Positions 1 through 8,875 of a DNA stretch of 64,000 nt are shown in pieces; positions within the stretch are counted from its first letter, which is position 1; every line of letters begins with the position of its first letter. Origin of the DNA: Pelagibius sp. Alg239-R121 (GTDB taxonomy: Bacteria; Pseudomonadota; Alphaproteobacteria; Kiloniellales; Kiloniellaceae). Under the pieces are notes generated by a model. The model did not search any database and had not been told where the DNA came from. It saw only the letters and a program-made list of their open reading frames with translations. Location of the stretch: contig NZ_CAMZOF010000010.1 of assembly GCF_947331435.1 (NCBI RefSeq), positions 124,001-188,000 on the forward strand. Direction: 5' to 3'. A program made the position numbers and the translations under genes.

Positions 1-1743
1 AATGTTAAAGGCCAGGACATAACTTACGCCGATCACGGTTCCAGGGATGGCGAAGCTCAGCATGGTTCCAAACTCAAAGGCATTCTTGCCGGCGAATCTC
101 TGCCGGACGAGCAGGTACGCGGTCACAAGGCCAATCGCAGCCGTCAGCGGCGCTGAAACGCCGGCAATCACCATTGTGGTACCAAAGGAATTCCAGGCCG
201 AGCCGGTCCAAAGCAATCCATCTTCACCGGAGGACACCGAAAAGGCGGAGATGTAGTGGCGCAGGGTCAGGCTATGGTCCCTGCCCCAGGTTTCCACAAA
301 ACCACCGAAGACGATCATCGCGTAGATGACGATCGTCAAAAGCGCCCAGGGAACGGCCGTGCCATAAACCAGCCAGGACAGGCGTTTTGGCAGATAGGGA
401 TGGGTTCCGGAATCTCCTTTGCCGGTCACCGTCGTGTAGGACTTTTTGCCGAGCCAACGGCGCTGTGCATAAAAGGCCGACAGCGTGAATCCAAGCAGGA
501 CAATGGCCAAAACCGCCGCGCGGCCCTGATCGTTCTGCGCACCGACGATGGCAAAGAAGATCTCGGTCGAGAGCACGTCGAAGTTGCCACCAAGAACAAG
601 AGGGTTGCCGAAATCCGCCATGCTTTCGATGAACCCCAGCAGAAAGGCGTTGGCGAGTCCCGGCCGCATCAAGGGCAACGAGATCGAGGTGAAGGTTTTC
701 CAACGATTGGCGCGCAGGGTTTGCGCCGCTTCCTCCATCGAGGGGCTGACCCCTTCAACCACGCCGATCAACACCAGGAATGCAATGGGCGTAAAGGCCA
801 GCATTTGGGCGAACCACACACCTGGAAACCCGTAGATCCAGCGGCCGGCCGGAATATCGAAGAGATCGCTGGCAAACTGCGTGACGCTGCCAGAACGCCC
901 GAACAACAGGATTATGGCCAGACCAATCACGAAAGGTGGCGTGATGATTGGCAGGACGGTCAACGCGCGCAGCAGTTTTTTGGCCCTAAATCCGGTCCGC
1001 GTTACCACCAGCGCAAATGCCAGGCCAAGGGTCGTGGTTCCCGCCCCGACCGTGACGGCCAGAAACAACGAGTTCCAGGCGGCGCCACAGGAGACATTGC
1101 TGCCCAGACAGCCCAGGCCCCAGATTTTTTTGTCGAACAGTTTAGAGAGAAAAACGTTGGGTGCATAAAGCCCCGCTTCGTCTTTCAATGCGCTCAAAAG
1201 AATTTGGATAACTGGAAACAGGATGAAGATGCCAACGAGAGCAATGACCAGACCGATCGATCCAACAACGAAAACATCACCGTTGATCGCACCGCGCGCC
1301 GCAATGCCCTGAGTCAGAAAGAACAGGAAGGCGGCGCAGGTCAACAGAGCGCCGTAGCCTAAGCCAAACTGGCGTTGTCCCAAGGCGCCGAACAGAGCCT
1401 CAAGAGTCGCATACTCCCAACCGGAAATGCCGATTGAAAAGCCTTGGAGCCCGACATAAGCGAGTCCGCCGACCCCCGATATCAGAAGAAGATTGGCAAA
1501 GAGAGGGTCGTTCTTGGCCCGGCCGAACAACCCTAGCGGCAAGAGAAGAAACAGGCTGATCGGTGCCAGCCAGATTTTGTCGTCGACGAAGGCCTGCAAA
1601 ATACCGGGCGCATAGTCGCTGTCGAGCGGATAGCCGTCCAACAACCACTCGAAGATCCAGAAGCCGTCCTCTATGGCGTACCATGGCAGGATCGCGTAAC
1701 CGAGCCAGCCCACGGCCAGCCATAGAGCAACGGTTCTGTTCAT
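1..1743 (-). CDS. ABC transporter permease, Fe3+/phosphosugar type (partial, C-terminus beyond window)
   Basis: I translated this frame by hand from the ATG at 1743 to base 1: 581 codons without a stop, running off the left edge. The protein is strongly hydrophobic. It has an N-terminal block of several membrane segments and then two binding-protein-dependent permease modules: around residues 280-400 an EEAAQTLRANRW-type EAA loop (the site that contacts the ATPase), with a second module beginning near residue 500. This fused two-module layout is typical of FbpB/AfuB permeases, usually about 700 residues. It lies 50 bp downstream of the binding-protein gene and is surely co-transcribed with it. 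The ATPase gene should lie just outside the window. Substrate could be iron, a phosphonate or a phosphorylated polyol; the inositol context favours the last (inference). Confidence 0.85.
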   Translation of the reverse strand, partial: MNRTVALWLAVGWLGYAILPWYAIEDGFWIFEWLLDGYPLDSDYAPGILQAFVDDKIWLAPISLFLLLPLGLFGRAKNDPLFANLLLISGVGGLAYVGLQGFSIGISGWEYATLEALFGALGQRQFGLGYGALLTCAAFLFFLTQGIAARGAINGDVFVVGSIGLVIALVGIFILFPVIQILLSALKDEAGLYAPNVFLSKLFDKKIWGLGCLGSNVSCGAAWNSLFLAVTVGAGTTTLGLAFALVVTRTGFRAKKLLRALTVLPIITPPFVIGLAIILLFGRSGSVTQFASDLFDIPAGRWIYGFPGVWFAQMLAFTPIAFLVLIGVVEGVSPSMEEAAQTLRANRWKTFTSISLPLMRPGLANAFLLGFIESMADFGNPLVLGGNFDVLSTEIFFAIVGAQNDQGRAAVLAIVLLGFTLSAFYAQRRWLGKKSYTTVTGKGDSGTHPYLPKRLSWLVYGTAVPWALLTIVIYAMIVFGGFVETWGRDHSLTLRHYISAFSVSSGEDGLLWTGSAWNSFGTTMVIAGVSAPLTAAIGLVTAYLLVRQRFAGKNAFEFGTMLSFAIPGTVIGVSYVLAFNI

Positions 1744-1793
1744 CCGGGAGACAAACTCTCAAAAATTACCGAGATGAGCCCTTAGCAGGAACA

Positions 1794-2846
1794 TCAACGC
1801 GGCAGAGATTTTACTTCGTCATCCCACTTCTTCAGAAGGCGCTTGCGCTCAGCCGAAGACCCGTACTTTTTGAAGTCGTAATCGATCAGCTTGATCTGAT
1901 CCAACTTTGGTGCGCTCGGTGAGGATTCAGCCGCCAGATTGGACATGACCTGATAGGCCTTGACCTCGAGAGAACGCGATTGCACGCCAGCCTTCAGAGC
2001 CCAGTCGTAAAACTTCTTTGCGCTCTCAGGATTCCGGGCACCCTTGATAATGCTCATCGAGCCGATTTCGTAACCGGTGCCCTCGGCCGGTGCGACGACG
2101 TTGATCGGAAAACCGCTGACCGCCTGTTTCACAGCGTCATGCATGAAGACAATGCCGATGGTGGTCTCGCCGCGTGCCGCAGCTTTGATCGGCGCGGAGC
2201 CGGACTTGGTGTACTGGTTGATGTTCTTGTGCAAGGCCTTCATAAACGCGAAGCCCTCTTCTTCACCAAACAGCTGCACAATGGTGGCAAGCGTCGTGTA
2301 GGCCGTTCCCGAAGAATTCGGATTGGCCATCTGAACTTCACCCTTGTAGACCGGGTCCGTCAGATCCTTCCAGCTTGTTGGCTCAGGAAGCCCCTTTTCT
2401 TTCAGCAGCTCAGTGTTGTAGCCGTAACCCAGCGCACCGGCATAGATACCGATCGTCTTGTCGCTGGCCGAAGCTGCCTGGCTGATAGCCCAGTCGTGAA
2501 GTTCGCCGCGCATCGGAGAAACGTAGGCTTCGGTCAAGCCTTCTTCGGCTGCCTGAAGATGCGGATCGCCGGTACCGCCCCACCAGATGTCTCCCTTGGG
2601 GTTCCGCCCTTCCGCTTTGATCTGTGCAAAGGTCTCGCCGGAGCTTTTGCGGCTCATGGCAACCTTGATGCCCGTCTCTTTTTCGAAGGCCTGGACCATC
2701 AACTGGCACCAGTCTTCTTGTGCCGAGCAATAGTAGGTCAGTTTATCGGCAGCAAAGGCGGTTGAGGTTCCAAGTGCTGAAAACGTTACCAACGCAGCGG
2801 CGGCGGCGCCGAAAACCCACTGGTTTTTGCTTGTTGTCCCGGTCAT
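1794..2846 (-). CDS. Periplasmic substrate-binding protein, AfuA/FbpA-like
   Basis: 350 residues with a clear signal peptide (hydrophobic residues 10-32, cleavage near AFAAD). The mature protein is a type II periplasmic binding protein of the family that covers ferric-iron, 2-aminoethylphosphonate and sugar-phosphate binders. Motif DIWWGGTGDPHL at about 86-97 and two cysteines near the start (C40, C47) resemble AfuA-type proteins, some of which bind hexose phosphates, more than classical tyrosine-rich iron binders. Start supported by AGGGAG eight bases upstream. First gene of the transporter operon, divergent from the phosphatase gene at 3180, with an IolR-like inverted repeat between them. 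Ligand is inferred; iron or phosphonate is not excluded. Confidence 0.82.
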   Translation of the reverse strand: MTGTTSKNQWVFGAAAAALVTFSALGTSTAFAADKLTYYCSAQEDWCQLMVQAFEKETGIKVAMSRKSSGETFAQIKAEGRNPKGDIWWGGTGDPHLQAAEEGLTEAYVSPMRGELHDWAISQAASASDKTIGIYAGALGYGYNTELLKEKGLPEPTSWKDLTDPVYKGEVQMANPNSSGTAYTTLATIVQLFGEEEGFAFMKALHKNINQYTKSGSAPIKAAARGETTIGIVFMHDAVKQAVSGFPINVVAPAEGTGYEIGSMSIIKGARNPESAKKFYDWALKAGVQSRSLEVKAYQVMSNLAAESSPSAPKLDQIKLIDYDFKKYGSSAERKRLLKKWDDEVKSLPR

Positions 2847-3179
2847 ATTTCTGTCTCCCTGTTCGACGGTTTGAACTTGATTTCAATTGCTTGCGTGAAA
2901 TCTTTGTCACCGCTTATTATCACCTCGCCGCCTTACAGGACCTATCGACCAAGGGCGACTTTGGTGCGCGGATTGCGGAACTGATTTTCCACAATCCTCC
3001 AAGAAGGGAATATCGTTTCCAAACACAATGCAATATTTTTGTCATATAAATGTAATATAGGATGGAGCTCACGCCGCGCAGAGGCACTGCAGTGCGCTGC
3101 CGAGAGATCGGTATCAAGCACAACGCTCATGTGGTTTCATGGGTGCGTCTCTTACCCCCTGCTTCAAAGTTCCAGGTGA
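2847..3179. promoter_or_regulatory. Divergent promoter region, ABC importer / inositol monophosphatase
   Basis: 333 bp without a gene. It must hold the promoters for the importer operon (leftward) and the phosphatase (rightward). AT-rich in the middle (3020-3060). It contains the inverted repeat listed separately at 3007-3020. No convincing -35/-10 pair could be fixed by eye. Confidence 0.6.
3007..3020. promoter_or_regulatory. Candidate IolR operator 1 (GGAA-N6-TTCC)
   Basis: GGAATATCGTTTCC: a perfect GGAA/TTCC inverted repeat with a six-base spacer, between the importer and phosphatase genes. It has the GGAA-N6-TTCC form that I recall being reported for the RpiR-type inositol repressor IolR of Sinorhizobium meliloti. 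Related repeats lie before the RpiR gene and between iolG and iolC. Confidence 0.55.
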
Positions 3180-4010
3180 ATGACAACAAATCCCAATGAA
3201 CGACGGTTACAGATTGCCTGTGACATCGCACAGGAAGCCGGCAAGCATGCCCTTTCCTACTTTGCTGACCGCGACAGCCTGAAGATCAAGGGTAAGGGTC
3301 TGCAGGACATGTTCAGTCAGGCCGATGTCGAAACTGAGCTGTTGATCCGCGAACGTCTCTCTGCGGCCTTTCCCGAGGATGGTTTTTTCGGCGAGGAGAC
3401 CGAACCTTCCGGGCTCGATTCGGACAGCGGCACCTGGGTTGTCGATCCGATCGACGGAACGGCCTGCTTCGTCGTCGGAATTCCGACCTGGTGTGTTTCC
3501 ATCGCCTTTGTCAGGGACAACAGAATCGAAATTGGCGTTATCTATGATCCGAACACAGACGAGCTCTTTTCGGCATCCCGCGGTCAGGGCGCCTATCTGA
3601 ACGGACAGCGGATGGCCACCAGTGCAGCCAGTGACTTCACAAACGGCATGACCGGTTTCAGCTTTTCCCACCGCGCCACACCACAGGATATCGTTGTTTT
3701 GCTGGAGAAACTCCTGATCGCGGGCGGTATGTTCTACCGCAACGGTTCGGGCGCCTTGACCCTCGCCTATGTAGCCTGTGGCCGGCTCAACGCCTTCTTC
3801 GAACCTCACATGAACTCCTGGGATTCCAGTGCCGGTATCCTGATGATCACGGAAGCCGGTGGTTGGGCAAACGATACGCTCGCCAACGAGGGACTGGTAC
3901 AGGGGTCGCTGGTGATGGCTTCGGCCGGTGGACTCGCCGGCCCCTTGCAGGCTCTGGTCGGGGAAAGCTTGGCGGAACTAACGATAGAGAAAAGCGACGC
4001 GGAGAGTTAA
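3180..4010 (+). CDS. Inositol-monophosphatase-family phosphatase
   Basis: 276 residues, the normal length for the Mg2+-dependent IMPase superfamily (SuhB, HisN-type, CysQ). Motifs seen: GEE at 71-73, the metal-binding DPIDGT at 89-94, and WDSSAG at 214-219 for the third metal ligand. After DPIDGT the usual N/F pair is replaced by A-C-F, a small departure from the consensus. An AGGTGA Shine-Dalgarno touches the ATG. Divergent from an AfuA-like importer and beside an RpiR-iolG-iolC group, it could dephosphorylate an imported inositol phosphate to free myo-inositol for IolG (inference). Histidinol phosphatase activity is an alternative for the family, but no his genes are near. Confidence 0.82.
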   Translation: MTTNPNERRLQIACDIAQEAGKHALSYFADRDSLKIKGKGLQDMFSQADVETELLIRERLSAAFPEDGFFGEETEPSGLDSDSGTWVVDPIDGTACFVVGIPTWCVSIAFVRDNRIEIGVIYDPNTDELFSASRGQGAYLNGQRMATSAASDFTNGMTGFSFSHRATPQDIVVLLEKLLIAGGMFYRNGSGALTLAYVACGRLNAFFEPHMNSWDSSAGILMITEAGGWANDTLANEGLVQGSLVMASAGGLAGPLQALVGESLAELTIEKSDAES

Positions 4011-4023
4011 CGCTGGAAAGCTC

Positions 4024-4596
4024 CTAACCCCTTCTATCGAACATTGCCACAATCCTGTTCTGCTGGGTCTCGTTGAGCGTCGGCCAAATCTTATCCATGT
4101 TCTCTTTGACTTCTTTCGCCCCCGCAAGATAGGCCTTGCCGTACCAAATGTAAGCCAACTCGTTCAGCTCTTCCTCATCGTCCGTCTTTGGCGCCAGGCC
4201 TTGGGCATACATCCAGGCGATCAACTCCATAGCCTCGTTCTCGCCGGCCTTGGCCTGCTCAATGAGCTTCTCGACATCCTTCGGATCAACAAGGCCCGCC
4301 TTGATTCGCGTAATCACACCCTCGCGCGCCGCGATCACTTCAGCGGCAGCCTTTGCGATGGCAGCACGTTCAGCGGCCTGATGTTGCCGTTGCGCCAGGA
4401 CACCCGCGATCGACTTGGGCACTTCCACCCGGCCGGGCAGATCTTCGCACCAGTCCGGCGTGGCGCCATGGCTGGTGCAGATGAAACGCTTGGTCAGAGT
4501 GTCCGAAGTCCGCCAATAGTCGTCCGAATAGGACGTCGCTGAGGCCGGTGCCGCTAAAAGCGCACCCAAAACGAAGGCAATCGAAATTAAACGCAT
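4024..4596 (-). CDS. Secreted protein with Sel1-like repeat
   Basis: 190 residues from the ATG at 4596 (an upstream in-frame ATG at 4629 would add 11 residues but gives a worse signal peptide). Residues 1-20 (MRLISIAFVLGALLAAPASA) form a signal peptide with an Ala-x-Ala cleavage site. The C-terminal part (about 105-180) has the alternating small and aromatic pattern of Sel1/TPR-like helical repeats (EAMELIAWMYAQG...YIWYGKAYLAGA). Two cysteines, about 30 and 40 residues into the precursor, may pair in the periplasm. It converges on the phosphatase gene with only 13 bp between the stops. Function unknown. Confidence 0.65.
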   Translation of the reverse strand: MRLISIAFVLGALLAAPASATSYSDDYWRTSDTLTKRFICTSHGATPDWCEDLPGRVEVPKSIAGVLAQRQHQAAERAAIAKAAAEVIAAREGVITRIKAGLVDPKDVEKLIEQAKAGENEAMELIAWMYAQGLAPKTDDEEELNELAYIWYGKAYLAGAKEVKENMDKIWPTLNETQQNRIVAMFDRRG

Positions 4597-4790
4597 GTCA
4601 ACCGGCCGCTTCCTGCGATCCCGTTTCATTCAATGCAGGAGCCGCACTCCTACAAGGACGGAGGTTGATGCAAAAACTTTAAGATCGCGTTTTTATCCAA
4701 TTGTTTTTAAATAAAATTTTATCTTTCTAGCAGCGAGCCAAATCGCTTCGAACCGCCGATGCTGGCGTAAGTCCATTTATTCCACTAATT

Positions 4791-4806
4791 TAGAAAAATC
4801 ATTCTA
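4791..4806. promoter_or_regulatory. Candidate IolR operator 2 (TAGAA-N6-TTCTA)
   Basis: TAGAAAAATCATTCTA, a perfect 5+6+5 inverted repeat ending 21 bp before the RpiR start codon. Spacing and core (GAA-N6-TTC) equal those of the repeat at 3007. Its position suggests autorepression. Confidence 0.5.
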
Positions 4807-4827
4807 TTTGATCGGCTCCAAATTCTA

Positions 4828-5682
4828 ATGGCTCCATCGGCTCTCCCTTCCAATTACGAAGATCTGCGCACAGTCATCTCCACGCGGCATGATCTTCTGA
4901 GCAAGCGACTGCGCCAGATCGCCGAGTTCGCTCTTGCGAATCCCAACGACATGGCGTTGGAGACCGTCTCAGTCATCGCCGAACGCGCCAATGTTCAGCC
5001 CTCGAGCCTGATCCGCTTCGCAAAGGCATTTGGCTATGACGGCTTCAGCACTATGCAGCGGGTGTTTCGGGCCCGGCTGACCGAACGGCAACCCAGTTAT
5101 CGCGAACGTATCAAGGCCCTGAAAGAACAGAGCGACACGCCCATGTCGGCGATTACGGTACTTGATCGTTTTACCGAGGCCGCGACCCATGCCCTCAGCC
5201 ACCTGCGCGAGGAAACGAGACCGGAACTGCTGGAGCAGGCCGTCGAGCTGCTGGCCAATGCAGAATGGATCCATGTCATTGGACAGCGCCGAGCCTTTCC
5301 GGTCGCCGCCTATCTCAACTACACGTTAAGTCACCTTGACCGAAAGGTCTCGCTGATCGATTCCGTGGGTGGCATGGTCACCGAACAGGCGAAAAATATT
5401 TCGCCCAACGATCTGTTGTTGGCAGTGAGTTTTCAAAGCTATGCACCGGACACCCTGGCGATTGCCACTCAGGCCCGACAACAGGGATCCAAGATCATTG
5501 CGATTACGGACGGTCCATTAAGTCCGTTCGCTGCCTTATCGGACGTCTGCTTTGAAGTCGAGGAAGCCCAGGTGGAATCGTTCCGATCGCTTTCCGCCTG
5601 CATGTGCCTGTCACTGTCGCTCGCCGTCTGTCTCGGCTACCGCTTGGACAAAAATACAAATTTCGACAACCTCTTTGCCTAG
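4828..5682 (+). CDS. iolR: RpiR-family transcriptional regulator, probable inositol repressor
   Basis: 284 residues. N-terminal HTH_6 domain (about 10-85; the helix containing NVQPSSLIRFAKAFGYDGF is the typical DNA-reading part) followed by a SIS sugar-phosphate-binding domain (about 125-265, with IHVIGQRRAFPVAAYL and LLLAVSFQSY...). RpiR proteins sense phosphorylated sugars through the SIS domain. It faces the convergent iolG and sits inside a cluster of inositol genes, so IolR is the best guess; the shared inverted repeats support this. The gene symbol rests on context and repeats, not on a database match. Confidence 0.8.
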   Translation: MAPSALPSNYEDLRTVISTRHDLLSKRLRQIAEFALANPNDMALETVSVIAERANVQPSSLIRFAKAFGYDGFSTMQRVFRARLTERQPSYRERIKALKEQSDTPMSAITVLDRFTEAATHALSHLREETRPELLEQAVELLANAEWIHVIGQRRAFPVAAYLNYTLSHLDRKVSLIDSVGGMVTEQAKNISPNDLLLAVSFQSYAPDTLAIATQARQQGSKIIAITDGPLSPFAALSDVCFEVEEAQVESFRSLSACMCLSLSLAVCLGYRLDKNTNFDNLFA

Positions 5683-5754
5683 AGTAGTTCCGGGTTAGAC
5701 GGAGCCGCTTTTGGGCAATCCGTCGTCCCGGCCAACTTCCTCCAACCATCCGAT

Positions 5755-6747
5755 TTAGGGCGCCAATTTGACTGTCCGGCCTTCACGGAGAGATTGCAAT
5801 GCGGCATCGGCCAAGACGAGGGCTCTGCGACCATCTTCGCCACAGGGACTTGGAGCTTCGGCTGCCGTTACGGCGTCGATGAAGGCCTCAAGCTCTGCCC
5901 TGTAAGCAGCCGCATAGCGTTCCAGGAAAAAATACAGCGGCTTGTCATGCGAAACCCCCGACTCGGTTGCAATCTCCAGAGTGGTGGGAAGCTGGTTCTC
6001 CGCCCGGAGCATCCCCTTGCTGCCATGCACTTCGATCCGCTGGTCGTAACCGTAGGCTGCGCGGCGGCTGTTGCTGATCTGGCACAGGCGCCCGCTCTCA
6101 GTGCGTAAGGTGACCAAGGCACTGTCGACATCCCCCGCATCCGCAATCGCCGGGTCGACCAGACAGCTTGCTGTTGCCGTGATCTCCACCGGTTCCTCTC
6201 CCAGAAGCCAGCGTGCAACATCAAAATCGTGGATCATCATGTCACGGAACAGGCCGCCGGAAACCTTGATGTAGGCAACCGGCGGCGGCGCCGGGTCTCG
6301 GCTGGTAATCGAAATGATTTCAACATCGCCAATTGCACGCTCGACCAGCCGTCTTTGCAATTCCGCAAAACTAGGATCAAAACGGCGGTTAAAGGCCAGC
6401 GCGAGAGGAACGCCGGCGCCTTTCGCAACAGCCAGACAGCTTTCGACTCGCTCCAACGTCAAATCGATCGGCTTTTCACAGAAAATAGCCTTCCCGGCCC
6501 TTGCAGATGCCTCAATCAGATCAGCATGCGTGTCCGTTGAACTGGCAATGACGACGGCACCAACTAAGGGGTCAGCCAAGGCCACCTCGATGGAAACCAC
6601 CTCAGCTCCGTGTTTTTGCGCGAGAGCCTGAGCTGCAGTTGTGTTGACATCGACAACGTACCGCAGCTTCGCAGCGCCGTGACGCGCAATGTTCTCAGCG
6701 TGGATCGAACCGATCCTACCGGCGCCAAACTGGCAAAAATTAAGCAC
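5755..6747 (-). CDS. iolG: Inositol 2-dehydrogenase
   Basis: 330 residues, GFO/IDH/MocA fold. NAD-binding loop GAGRIGSIHAENI at 8-20, EKP motif (catalytic Lys) near 95, and DMMIHDFDVARW with the catalytic Asp/His pair near 168-180. It oxidises myo-inositol to 2-keto-myo-inositol (scyllo-inosose), the first step of the Iol pathway. Starts with GTG at 6747, preceded by GAGAGGAAAG. It is divergent from iolC and shares an inverted-repeat operator with it. Related enzymes can also use scyllo- or D-chiro-inositol. Confidence 0.88.
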   Translation of the reverse strand: MLNFCQFGAGRIGSIHAENIARHGAAKLRYVVDVNTTAAQALAQKHGAEVVSIEVALADPLVGAVVIASSTDTHADLIEASARAGKAIFCEKPIDLTLERVESCLAVAKGAGVPLALAFNRRFDPSFAELQRRLVERAIGDVEIISITSRDPAPPPVAYIKVSGGLFRDMMIHDFDVARWLLGEEPVEITATASCLVDPAIADAGDVDSALVTLRTESGRLCQISNSRRAAYGYDQRIEVHGSKGMLRAENQLPTTLEIATESGVSHDKPLYFFLERYAAAYRAELEAFIDAVTAAEAPSPCGEDGRRALVLADAALQSLREGRTVKLAP

Positions 6748-6870
6748 GGAACTTTCCTCTCACTACAACGACGAAGCCCAATGACGGTCGTCTTCATGGC
6801 TCAACGGAGTCGGGCGCAGTGCGGCGCCGATCCGGATTGGCAAAATTTATATTCTGCACTTGATAGTCAA

Positions 6871-6888
6871 ATGGAATTTTTGTTTCAT
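6871..6888. promoter_or_regulatory. Candidate IolR operator 3 in the iolG/iolC divergent promoter
   Basis: ATGGAATTTTTGTTTCAT: ATGGAA / TTTCAT arms, one mismatch, six-base spacer, the same geometry as the repeats at 3007 and 4791. Located 77 bp before the iolC start and 124 bp before that of iolG. Confidence 0.5.
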
Positions 6889-6964
6889 AACGCACAATCG
6901 ATCTTTCACGCAATTCGGCGTCCCACCACCGCAGTGGTCGGTGGCGTCAAGGGAGCAATCAATC

Positions 6965-8875
6965 ATGACTGAGCGCCGTTTCGATGTTATCGGCATGGGC
7001 CGCGCAGGTGTTGACCTCTACGGCGAACAGGTCGGCGGGCGGCTGGAAGACATGGCCAGTTTTGCAAAATACGTCGGCGGCAGCCCCTGCAACACTTGCA
7101 TCGGTGCCGCCCGCCTGGGCCTACGTCCGGCCATGCTGGCACGCGTCGGTGACGAGCATATGGGGCGTTTCATCCGTGAAACGCTGGAAGCGGAAGGCGT
7201 AGACACCGGCCATCTCAAGACCGACAAGGACCGCCTGACCGCGCTGGTCATCCTGGGCATCCAGGATCGCGAGACCTTCCCGCTGATCTTTTACCGCGAA
7301 AACTGTGCGGATATGGCGATCGATCCTGCCGACTTCGACCCCGCTTTCATCGCGGAATCCAAGTGCCTGTTGGTCAGCGGCACTCATTTTTCGACACCTC
7401 AGGTCAATAACGCCAGCCGGACTGCCATGCGTTATGCCCGCGCGGCCGGTACCAAAGTAGCTTTGGACATCGACTATCGTCCCGTGCTCTGGGGTTTGAC
7501 CGGACGCGGCCTCGGCGAAGAGCGTTTCGTGGCAAGCGAAGCTGTCTCAGCCCACCTACAGTCCATTGTCCCGGACTGCGACCTGATTGTCGGCACCGAA
7601 GAAGAGATTCACATCGCCGGCGGCGACACCGACACCTTGACGGCGTTGCGCCGTCTGCGTGAAATCACGACGGCGGTCCTTGTGGTCAAACGCGGCCCTA
7701 TGGGCTGCGTCGTTTTCCCCGATGCGATCCCGGAAGACATTGAACAGGGAATCAAGGGTCCGGGCTTTCCCATCGAAGTCTTCAATGTGCTGGGTGCAGG
7801 CGACGCCTTCATGGCCGGTTTCCTGCGTGGATGGTTACGCGAGGAACCCTATGAAACCTGCAGCGCCTACGCCAATGCCTGTGGCGCTTTCGCCGTATCG
7901 CGGCACGGCTGTTCACCGGCCTGTCCGAGTTGGGACGAACTCTCCGACTTCCTCAAGGTCGGCAGCCCGCACTTCAGGTTGCGCAACGACGCGCGCCTGG
8001 AGCAGTTGCATTGGGCCAGCAACCGAACAAAGGAATGGCCGGAAGTCTGCGCCTTTGCATTCGATCACAGGATGCAGTTGGAGGCGATCGCCCAGCGCCA
8101 CCAAAAGACCGAGGAAGACATCCATCGGTTCAAGTGTCTCGCCTGGCGCGCCGCACAAGAAGCTGCATCGTCAGTGGAAGGAGGCCGAGGCATCCTTTGT
8201 GACGGACGGTTGGGTCAGGACGCCCTGGATGCAGCCACCGGCAAGGGGGTCTGGATTGGCAGGCCCATCGAGCTTCCGGGCTCCCGCCCTCTTCAGTTCG
8301 AGGGCGGTGACAATGTCGCGGCAACTCTGCGTGAATGGCCCGCAGAGCACTGCGTGAAGTGCCTTGTCTTCTATCACCCCGACGATCCCGCCGACCTGCG
8401 GCAGCAACAGGAAGACAAGGTCAAATCGCTGTTCGAAGCCTGCCGGGTCACCCGTCACGAACTCCTGCTGGAAGTCATCCCGCCGAAAGAAAGCAAAGTG
8501 GACGCCTCGACCGTTGCGCGCTCAATGCAACGTTTTTACGATCTGGGAATCTATCCGGACTGGTGGAAACTGCAAGCGCCTGATACGGACGAGGGATGGC
8601 ATAACATCACCGACGGCATCACGCGTAACGATCCCTACTGCCGGGGCGTCCTGTTGCTTGGCCTTGAGGCGCCCGAAGAGGTTCTGGGCGCGGCCTTCGC
8701 CGCTGCGGCAAGCCAACCCCTGTGCAAGGGCTTCGCGGTGGGACGCAGCATCTTTGGAGCGCCGGCGGAGGGATGGTTTGCAGGCGAATTGTCGGACAAC
8801 GATGCAGTAGCCGCCATGTCAGGTAGCTATGCGCGGCTGATGGAGCTATGGCGCAGCAAGCGCTCAGACATTTGA
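6965..8875 (+). CDS. iolC: Bifunctional 5-dehydro-2-deoxygluconokinase / DUF2090 aldolase-like protein
   Basis: 636 residues from the ATG at 6965, chosen over an earlier in-frame start because GGGAG precedes it and the PfkB domain begins at once (RFDVIGMGRAGVDLYGEQ). Residues 1-330 are a PfkB sugar kinase with the ATP/anion-hole motif NVLGAGDAF near residue 275. Residues 335-636 are a DUF2090 domain with an aldolase-like TIM-barrel pattern, fused to IolC in many Proteobacteria. The kinase phosphorylates 2-deoxy-5-keto-gluconate; the second domain is thought to cleave the product to malonate semialdehyde and dihydroxyacetone phosphate. iolB, iolD and iolE are not in the window and must lie elsewhere. 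Confidence 0.87.
   Translation: MTERRFDVIGMGRAGVDLYGEQVGGRLEDMASFAKYVGGSPCNTCIGAARLGLRPAMLARVGDEHMGRFIRETLEAEGVDTGHLKTDKDRLTALVILGIQDRETFPLIFYRENCADMAIDPADFDPAFIAESKCLLVSGTHFSTPQVNNASRTAMRYARAAGTKVALDIDYRPVLWGLTGRGLGEERFVASEAVSAHLQSIVPDCDLIVGTEEEIHIAGGDTDTLTALRRLREITTAVLVVKRGPMGCVVFPDAIPEDIEQGIKGPGFPIEVFNVLGAGDAFMAGFLRGWLREEPYETCSAYANACGAFAVSRHGCSPACPSWDELSDFLKVGSPHFRLRNDARLEQLHWASNRTKEWPEVCAFAFDHRMQLEAIAQRHQKTEEDIHRFKCLAWRAAQEAASSVEGGRGILCDGRLGQDALDAATGKGVWIGRPIELPGSRPLQFEGGDNVAATLREWPAEHCVKCLVFYHPDDPADLRQQQEDKVKSLFEACRVTRHELLLEVIPPKESKVDASTVARSMQRFYDLGIYPDWWKLQAPDTDEGWHNITDGITRNDPYCRGVLLLGLEAPEEVLGAAFAAAASQPLCKGFAVGRSIFGAPAEGWFAGELSDNDAVAAMSGSYARLMELWRSKRSDI

Follow-up and report, generated by a model that had tools for sequence, protein, structure and literature searches.

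The 64,000-nucleotide stretch analysed here (the window, C10:124001-188000 on contig NZ_CAMZOF010000010.1 of the 8.0-Mb, 48-contig genome of Pelagibius sp. Alg239-R121) carries at its left end a candidate regulon for uptake and use of inositol phosphates. It combines an ATP-binding cassette (ABC) transporter of the AfuABC type, an inositol-monophosphatase-family phosphatase (IMPase), an RpiR-family regulator and the inositol catabolic genes iolG and iolC. The transporter operon extends partly beyond the window and was completed from the adjoining 10 kb on the left (L009). The features of the locus are as follows.

L009:8448-9530, outside the window: afuC, ATPase, 4-bp overlap with afuB
1..1743, minus strand: afuB, fused permease with two BPD_transp_1 stretches, 581 of 738 amino acids in the window; whole gene L009:9527-11743
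1794..2846, minus strand: afuA, periplasmic binding protein of the AfuA sugar-phosphate family, 49% identity to 4r72
2977..2990: IolR-type operator GGAACTGATTTTCC, perfect GGAA-N6-TTCC
3007..3020: IolR-type operator GGAATATCGTTTCC, perfect, all 14 bases the same in four species
3180..4010, plus strand: IMPase, PF00459, 180.5 bits
4024..4629, minus strand: hypothetical protein, 201 amino acids, no Pfam or NCBIfam match
4793..4804: IolR-type operator GAAAAATCATTC upstream of rpiR, 6/8 core bases
4828..5682, plus strand: RpiR-family regulator, probable IolR, 52% identity to Azospirillum iol-cluster regulators
5755..6747, minus strand: iolG, inositol 2-dehydrogenase, TIGR04380, 435.8 bits against a cut-off of 355
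6873..6886: IolR-type operator GGAATTTTTGTTTC between divergent iolG and iolC, 7/8 core bases
6965..8875, plus strand: iolC-DUF2090 fusion, 5-dehydro-2-deoxygluconokinase / 5-dehydro-2-deoxyphosphogluconate aldolase, NF047869, 813.4 bits against a cut-off of 600

The arrangement given in the preliminary description of this DNA, an AfuA-like protein and a fused permease divergent from an IMPase-family gene and adjacent to RpiR-IolG-IolC, was found as stated, with scores above the family cut-offs for IolG and IolC. The afuB gene follows 50 bp behind afuA, and the divergent afuA and IMPase genes are 333 bp apart. The start of iolC was taken as the ATG at 6965, the longest frame beginning with a TTG at 6860. 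All parts of the transporter match their families and none matches a named specificity; the best NCBIfam models are phnS2, PhnU2 and a ferric ATPase, each below its cut-off.

Inverted repeats had been proposed at three regulatory regions, and all three exist (3007-3020, 4793-4804 and 6873-6886). That set was incomplete, a second perfect GGAA-N6-TTCC copy at 2977, 30 bp from the copy at 3007 in the region between afuA and the IMPase gene, having been missed. The same palindrome, the alphaproteobacterial IolR motif, is found at the promoters of iolC, idhA and the inositol transporter of Caulobacter, which are derepressed on loss of the RpiR-family regulator IolR, and in relatives (Boutte et al. 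2008, PMC2597717). Mutation of one palindrome copy at the Caulobacter iolC promoter increased expression, and mutation of a second copy gave no rise (PMC2597717). The number of bare GAA-N6-TTC cores in the window is near chance (31 versus 22.4 +/- 4.4 in shuffled sequence, 5 of 100 shuffles reaching 31), and the count alone was discarded as evidence. The sites are credible because they are conserved: across four congeneric species 35 of 40 operator arm columns are invariant, versus 248 of the 684 remaining columns of the three intergenic regions that contain them. The afuA site reads TGGAATATCGTTTCCA in all three congeners, the second afuA site being weaker in one. The rpiR site has an 8/8 core in two congeners; one congener carries a perfect TGGAAAAATCATTCCA, and TGGAAAAAATATTCCA stands in another. 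At iolG/iolC, two of the three score under 7/8, the sequence of the site being otherwise kept.

Full TGGAA-N6-TTCCA palindromes occur in relatives. Of 14 iol-linked loci, 10 have a site matching 9 or more of 10 positions in front of afuA, where shuffled sequence predicts 0.17; among 82 unlinked loci there is 1, with 0.68 expected (of 85 such loci at the start three gave too little upstream sequence, and L081 duplicates L044). Part of the positives belong to a second genus of the same family, in some species of which rpiR is divergent from afuA and the two genes have sites in common (L056, L058). The window regulator has the HTH_6 and SIS domains of the RpiR family and lies near iol genes. Its best plasmid-borne relatives (52% identity) are situated inside Azospirillum iol clusters, it shares 44% identity with a Salmonella protein labelled IolR, and it is probably IolR. 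The repeats speak for the single regulon suggested earlier, being conserved in the genus and recurring in a second genus of the family, and we consider it highly probable that in the window's genus the genes belong to a single regulon related to inositol. A genome-wide scan with TGGAA-N6-TTCCA did not define a wider regulon, since it yielded 14 sites versus 9 in a reversed control, none of them in this cluster.

The association is kept, in rearranged forms, across several families. Among 16 stretches from outside the window's genus, nine contain iol genes together with afuABC, in several orders and strands (these 16 come from 20 stretches, the remainder being three congeners and a second afuABC of the window's own genome). 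L151 (G337) carries iolD-iolE-iolB-iolC-IMPase-afuA-afuB-afuA-afuC on one strand, with gaps of 8, 2, -8, 2, 130, 27, 28 and 23 bp; its iolB is just 30% identical to the query. L142 (G213) has iolG-IMPase-afuA-afuB-afuC with gaps of 3, 66, 22 and 12 bp, divergent from rpiR-iolCDEB. The IMPase gene of L052 follows 6 bp behind iolB in an iolCDEB-IMPase string with rpiR upstream and iolG and afuABC beside it, and L064 unites rpiR, iolG, iolCDEB, IMPase and afuABC.

An afuA orthologue at E 1e-125 or better was present in 25 of 289 genomes drawn evenly from the class. With one stretch of 13-20 kb per genome, and an IMPase called at an identity of at least 38% to one of two queries, iol genes neighboured afuABC in 8 of the 25 stretches and an IMPase gene in 14. 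Neither was found in any of 20 control stretches (11-20 kb) around members of the TIGR03261 family, taken from 20 of 36 TIGR03261 genomes, mostly from the top of the list (Fisher p 0.006 for iol and 4e-5 for IMPase, kinship ignored). In a FastTree tree of 130 binding proteins, from which three duplicates had been removed, the iol label changes 10 times and eight independent pairs lie on well-supported branches; short stretches, including nine outgroup rows, were scored as unlinked, and the label is a lower bound. The gene iolD is present in 21 of the 25 afuA genomes versus 26 of the 264 others, and in 7 of 19 genomes with the control family only (p 0.002 against the afuA genomes). Four afuA genomes without iolD (G092, G207, G226, G303) also have no neighbouring IMPase at the threshold, G226 showing a weak match of 29%, which fits a functional split in the clade, though with n=4.

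The binding protein points to a phosphorylated ligand. A phmmer search of the PDB with the window AfuA placed AfuA first (4r72-4r75, 321 bits), then the Vibrio structure 8x1a (308 bits), titled 'periplasmic G6P binding protein VcA0625' (G6P, glucose-6-phosphate), and P5PA (264 bits), with ferric binders at 49.5 bits or less. Using an AlphaFold model (mean predicted local distance difference test score 85), Foldseek ranked AfuA 1-4 and 6 (48-49% identity), 8x1a 5 (45%) and P5PA 7 (42%), ferric binders being about 20% identical. At 231.7 bits the protein is below the TIGR03261 (PhnS2) cut-off of 392.75. By sequence and Foldseek it is of the sugar-phosphate and not the ferric binding-protein type, and the purely ferric ligand that had been named as a possible refutation is not favoured. 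Its nearest named records are from uncultured Kiloniellaceae bacteria (94% and 92% identity).

AfuA contacts the sugar through H205, D206 and E229 and the phosphate through S37 and T150, and G6P binding is abolished on loss of H205, D206 or E229 (PMC4546632). All five residues are present in the window protein as S69, T181, H236, D237 and E260; S69 is conserved in 118 of 121 clade members and the other four in 121 of 121 each. The further AfuA contacts Y103 and Q269 (PMC8427247) are kept in 120 of 121 each. Other contacts are changed in most of the clade, namely T11 to Q43 (106/121), G36 to S68 (116/121) and I186 to S217 (102/121), and near them, by sequence, L61 to G93 (121/121) and Q64 to H96 (120/121). 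Nine outgroup proteins of 34-37% identity, taken to be phnS2-type, have no equivalents of H236 and D237. As S68 and S217 are the rule in this outgroup too, they need not signal a new ligand. The residue pattern fits a protein that reads a phosphorylated polyol ring, which may be other than that of AfuA. In several families of the class two afuA-type genes surround one permease and ATPase, for example in the order afuA-B-A-C (L143, L145, L146, L150, L151, L152, L158, L159 and L162), and L153 has three; two such genes per transporter possibly provide two ligand specificities.

The metal-binding GEE, DPIDGT and WD motifs are visible in the IMPase, which has the PF00459 fold. It scores under the cut-offs of named specificities (160 versus 332 bits for NF008027, 147 versus 275 for HisN). 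A PF07994 search of the genome gave no match to INO1, which could have supplied inositol phosphate internally, and de novo inositol-phosphate synthesis was rejected as the purpose of the enzyme.

From these genes and families, the conserved operators and the recurrent clustering and gene order we infer the following pathway. The periplasmic AfuA-type protein would bind inositol monophosphate, its phosphate through S69 and T181 and its polyol ring through H236, D237, E260, Y135 and Q299, and AfuB and AfuC would pump it inward. In the cytosol the neighbouring IMPase would strip off the phosphate, IolG would oxidise the inositol, and the remaining enzymes of the myo-inositol pathway, IolC from this locus and IolD, IolE and IolB from other parts of the genome, would degrade the product. 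The RpiR-family IolR would repress afuABC, the IMPase gene, rpiR and iolG/iolC via the GGAA-N6-TTCC-type operators until relieved by an inositol metabolite. We regard inositol monophosphate as the likely imported compound, because any rival has to explain why a phosphatase and inositol catabolism lie beside a sugar-phosphate-type importer in several lineages. A broader proposal, which we consider evenly balanced, is that afuABC-IMPase is a widespread importer-phosphatase pair dedicated to inositol monophosphates, which arise at the end of phytate and phosphatidylinositol breakdown. The copies in rhizobia and other bacteria carry an iron-importer annotation; the pair would have been recruited repeatedly into inositol operons, and where a permease has two binding proteins these may distinguish isomers of inositol phosphate.

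Several observations weigh against an inositol monophosphate importer. Among 80 named loci (22 of them shorter than 15 kb, three duplicating loci otherwise analysed) iol neighbours were found in only 3, two of which are congeners of the window, and an IMPase match in 39. In many loci of the Rhodobacteraceae type the neighbours of afuABC and IMPase are PhnCDE, a DeoR regulator and a HAD-IIA phosphatase, and on a S. meliloti plasmid and in Neorhizobium afuABC and IMPase accompany a LacI-type regulator. The afuABC-IMPase cassette is therefore broader than the iol regulon, and its ligand range could be broader too. The ten operator-positive loci represent four species of the window's genus and six of the second genus and hence count as two lineages; L058 has a single site, at a distance of 54 bp ahead of rpiR and 346 bp ahead of afuA. 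None of the other four iol-linked loci has a site upstream of afuA, although L052 (8/8 core) and L142 (10/10) have sites beside rpiR. At the separate iolD/iolE and iolB promoters of the window's own genome, no site with an 8/8 core or 9/10 positions was seen. In the tree pairs IMPase tracks iol linkage, but too few pairs differ (median p 0.125). The control TIGR03261 genomes also carry iolD in 22 of 36 cases (p 0.086 for the difference from the afuA genomes), so the co-occurrence partly reflects shared lifestyle and the adjacency weighs instead. The genome has five more PF00459 matches, one of them short, and the IMPase family is noted for loose specificity. Finally, AfuA binds G6P, fructose-6-phosphate, sedoheptulose-7-phosphate and mannose-6-phosphate, and its printed ligand table holds no inositol phosphate (PMC4546632).

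The main rival, which we judge unlikely, is that the importer carries hexose phosphates such as G6P and fructose-6-phosphate in the manner of AfuABC, the IMPase being a general sugar phosphatase and the iol genes neighbours through shared scavenging of polyols and sugars. The identities to AfuA (49%) and to the G6P binder VcA0625 (45%), the retention of all five mutated AfuA residues and the many clade loci, most of those examined, without adjacent iol genes agree with it. Hexose-phosphate import requires neither a phosphatase nor iol genes, yet several lineages string IMPase and iol genes together with afuABC, and IolR-type operators stand upstream of afuA in two genera. The contacts T11, G36 and I186 of AfuA also differ in most of the clade, though the replacements S68 and S217 are the outgroup rule as well.

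Less probable still is a larger ligand (glycerophosphoinositol or another big inositol phosphoester, or else an inositol polyphosphate), on which further enzymes would act before the IMPase. The lineages with two binding-protein genes per permease, an extra HAD phosphatase in L064 and the ugp genes behind afuABC-IMPase in Neorhizobium would suit such a compound. No phosphodiesterase is among those neighbours that were annotated, a subset of the total, and fructose-1,6-bisphosphate is not bound by AfuA (PMC4546632).

It is improbable to a further degree that the genes are mere neighbours, with the operators controlling iolG, iolC and rpiR alone and afuABC-IMPase serving an unrelated phosphate-ester task. 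The Rhodobacteraceae and Rhizobiaceae sets without iol genes, beside other regulators, could be so explained, but the very interval between afuA and the IMPase gene contains two conserved operators, and in other lineages the genes share one string. Import of ferric iron or 2-aminoethylphosphonate with chance neighbours, as implied by automatic annotation (the sub-cut-off models phnS2, PhnU2 and ferric ATPase; the Neorhizobium genes annotated afuABC 'iron'), is rejected as very improbable on scores (232 bits against a phnS2 cut-off of 393; ferric binders about 20% identical), on residues (H236 and D237 missing from the nine outgroup proteins, about 35% identical and presumed phnS2-type) and on gene context (0 of 20 TIGR03261 loci with iol or IMPase neighbours versus 8 and 14 of 25).

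Inositol-phosphate import by ABC transporters has been proposed before, in annotation databases. In KEGG, InoEFGK bears the label 'inositol-phosphate transport system'. InoEFGK and the corresponding Rhizobium etli system are ordinary sugar-type transporters with two separate permeases, which sets them apart from the window system. The acc operon (agrocinopine) imports a sugar phosphoester and, like the window, has an IMPase-type phosphatase, but differs in transporter type and sugar and in having a phosphodiesterase. Putative 2-aminoethylphosphonate binders of the PhnS2 type (TIGR03261) belong to the same broad class as the window AfuA but are about 35% identical, with other ring-contact residues. 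InoEFGK of Thermotoga maritima is an ABC transporter in an inositol regulon, with a ROK-type IolR (PMC3750489), and R. etli has a KEGG-derived 'myo-inositol 1-phosphate' ABC transporter (PMC9611204). Like the window system, they have been assigned to uptake of inositol or its phosphate beside inositol catabolism. The earlier statement that no inositol-phosphate importer of this kind is described is in need of qualification, since annotation databases already contain a category for such ABC transporters, albeit of another build.

Of the characterized systems, the AfuABC hexose/heptose-phosphate importer shares the fold, the five tested ligand residues, the afuA-afuB-afuC operon and the long fused permease (PMC4546632). 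In contrast to it, the window set is tied to an IMPase, iol genes and IolR-type operators, and some named ligand contacts differ. The pyridoxal-phosphate importer P5PA/P5PAB has a binding protein of the same family (42% identity; PMC8427247), showing that proteins closely related to AfuA can have other phosphorylated compounds as ligands; in the alignment P5PA has no equivalents of D206 and E229, whereas the window protein has both. The IolR myo-inositol regulon of Caulobacter and rhizobia likewise has an RpiR regulator adjoining iol genes and GGAA-N6-TTCC at iolC, idhA and a transporter operon (PMC2597717). The Caulobacter transporter is IbpA-IatA-IatP for free myo-inositol, in place of the AfuABC-type system and phosphatase of the window, and for inositol phosphates the same paper offered only the speculation that another transporter, of the HlyB family, might carry them (PMC2597717). 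A search of the open-access literature found no paper on an AfuABC-type inositol-phosphate importer. Relative to that literature, the apparent novelty is a putatively IolR-controlled system of the AfuABC type that has a phosphatase of its own.

Inositol phosphates account for a great deal of organic phosphorus, and inositol monophosphate is left over from phytase action. If the proposed function is true, a family of transporters that frequently carries a ferric-importer annotation would be reassigned, alphaproteobacteria would have a route to draw both carbon and phosphorus from inositol phosphates, and the IolR regulon would extend from free inositol to inositol phosphate. The presence of afuABC-IMPase in S. 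meliloti makes the hypothesis testable there. The plasmid operon of this species is probably SMb20365-20362, the tags being matched by order and annotation, not sequence. In a published table three of these genes show similar changes: -2.57 for SMb20362 (inositol-phosphate phosphatase), -4.17 for SMb20363 (FbpC1) and -3.72 for SMb20365 ('iron-binding protein') (PMC12542648). In R. etli, RHE_RS10880 (afuA/fbpA) and RHE_RS10865 (IMPase) are both listed in minimal medium (PMC9611204), and the tag spacing would fit afuA-afuB-afuC-IMPase, again matched by order and annotation and not by sequence. PMC11065229 mentions afuA once, as an iron gene.

Some further observations concern other afuABC loci. 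A PhnD/PhnE label is attached to 17 of the 130 tree rows. L105, L110, L117, L086 and similar loci have PhnC, PhnD, one or two PhnE and a DeoR regulator, followed by afuABC and IMPase. Most also have a HAD-IIA phosphatase, and some a Na/Pi cotransporter or a histidine phosphatase; these Rhodobacteraceae-type loci look like a separate organophosphate uptake island. On the Neorhizobium plasmids L191 and L188, genes of the ugp glycerol-3-phosphate importer directly follow afuABC-IMPase. A plasmid of Sinorhizobium sp. B11 has afuABC with no IMPase in the annotated stretch.

In the window itself, the gene for the 201-amino-acid hypothetical protein is kept between IMPase and rpiR in four species of the genus, and only there among the loci compared. 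A phage origin was rejected, a phage collection giving two matches at 32% identity. The second afuABC of the genome (L040, G000:C15) encodes an AfuA 60% identical to that of the window; its stretch contains no IMPase or iol genes, and its neighbours are a two-component system and HpcH/HpaI and MmgE/PrpD genes. The rest of the iol genes of this genome lie apart, with iolD/iolE and iolB on C7 and a second iol-like set on C11. Operator matches in L163 and L181 lie away from iol promoters and L164 has none; the L181 site, 3.5 kb before iolB, immediately precedes another gene, by eye one for a glycine-cleavage-type FAD protein, and was taken as chance. L164 and L163 (G000:C11 and C7) are additional iol-type loci. 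One has a LacI-type regulator together with homologues of IolD, IolC and IolB in divergent arrangement, the other an RpiR of its own that is 40% identical to that of the window.

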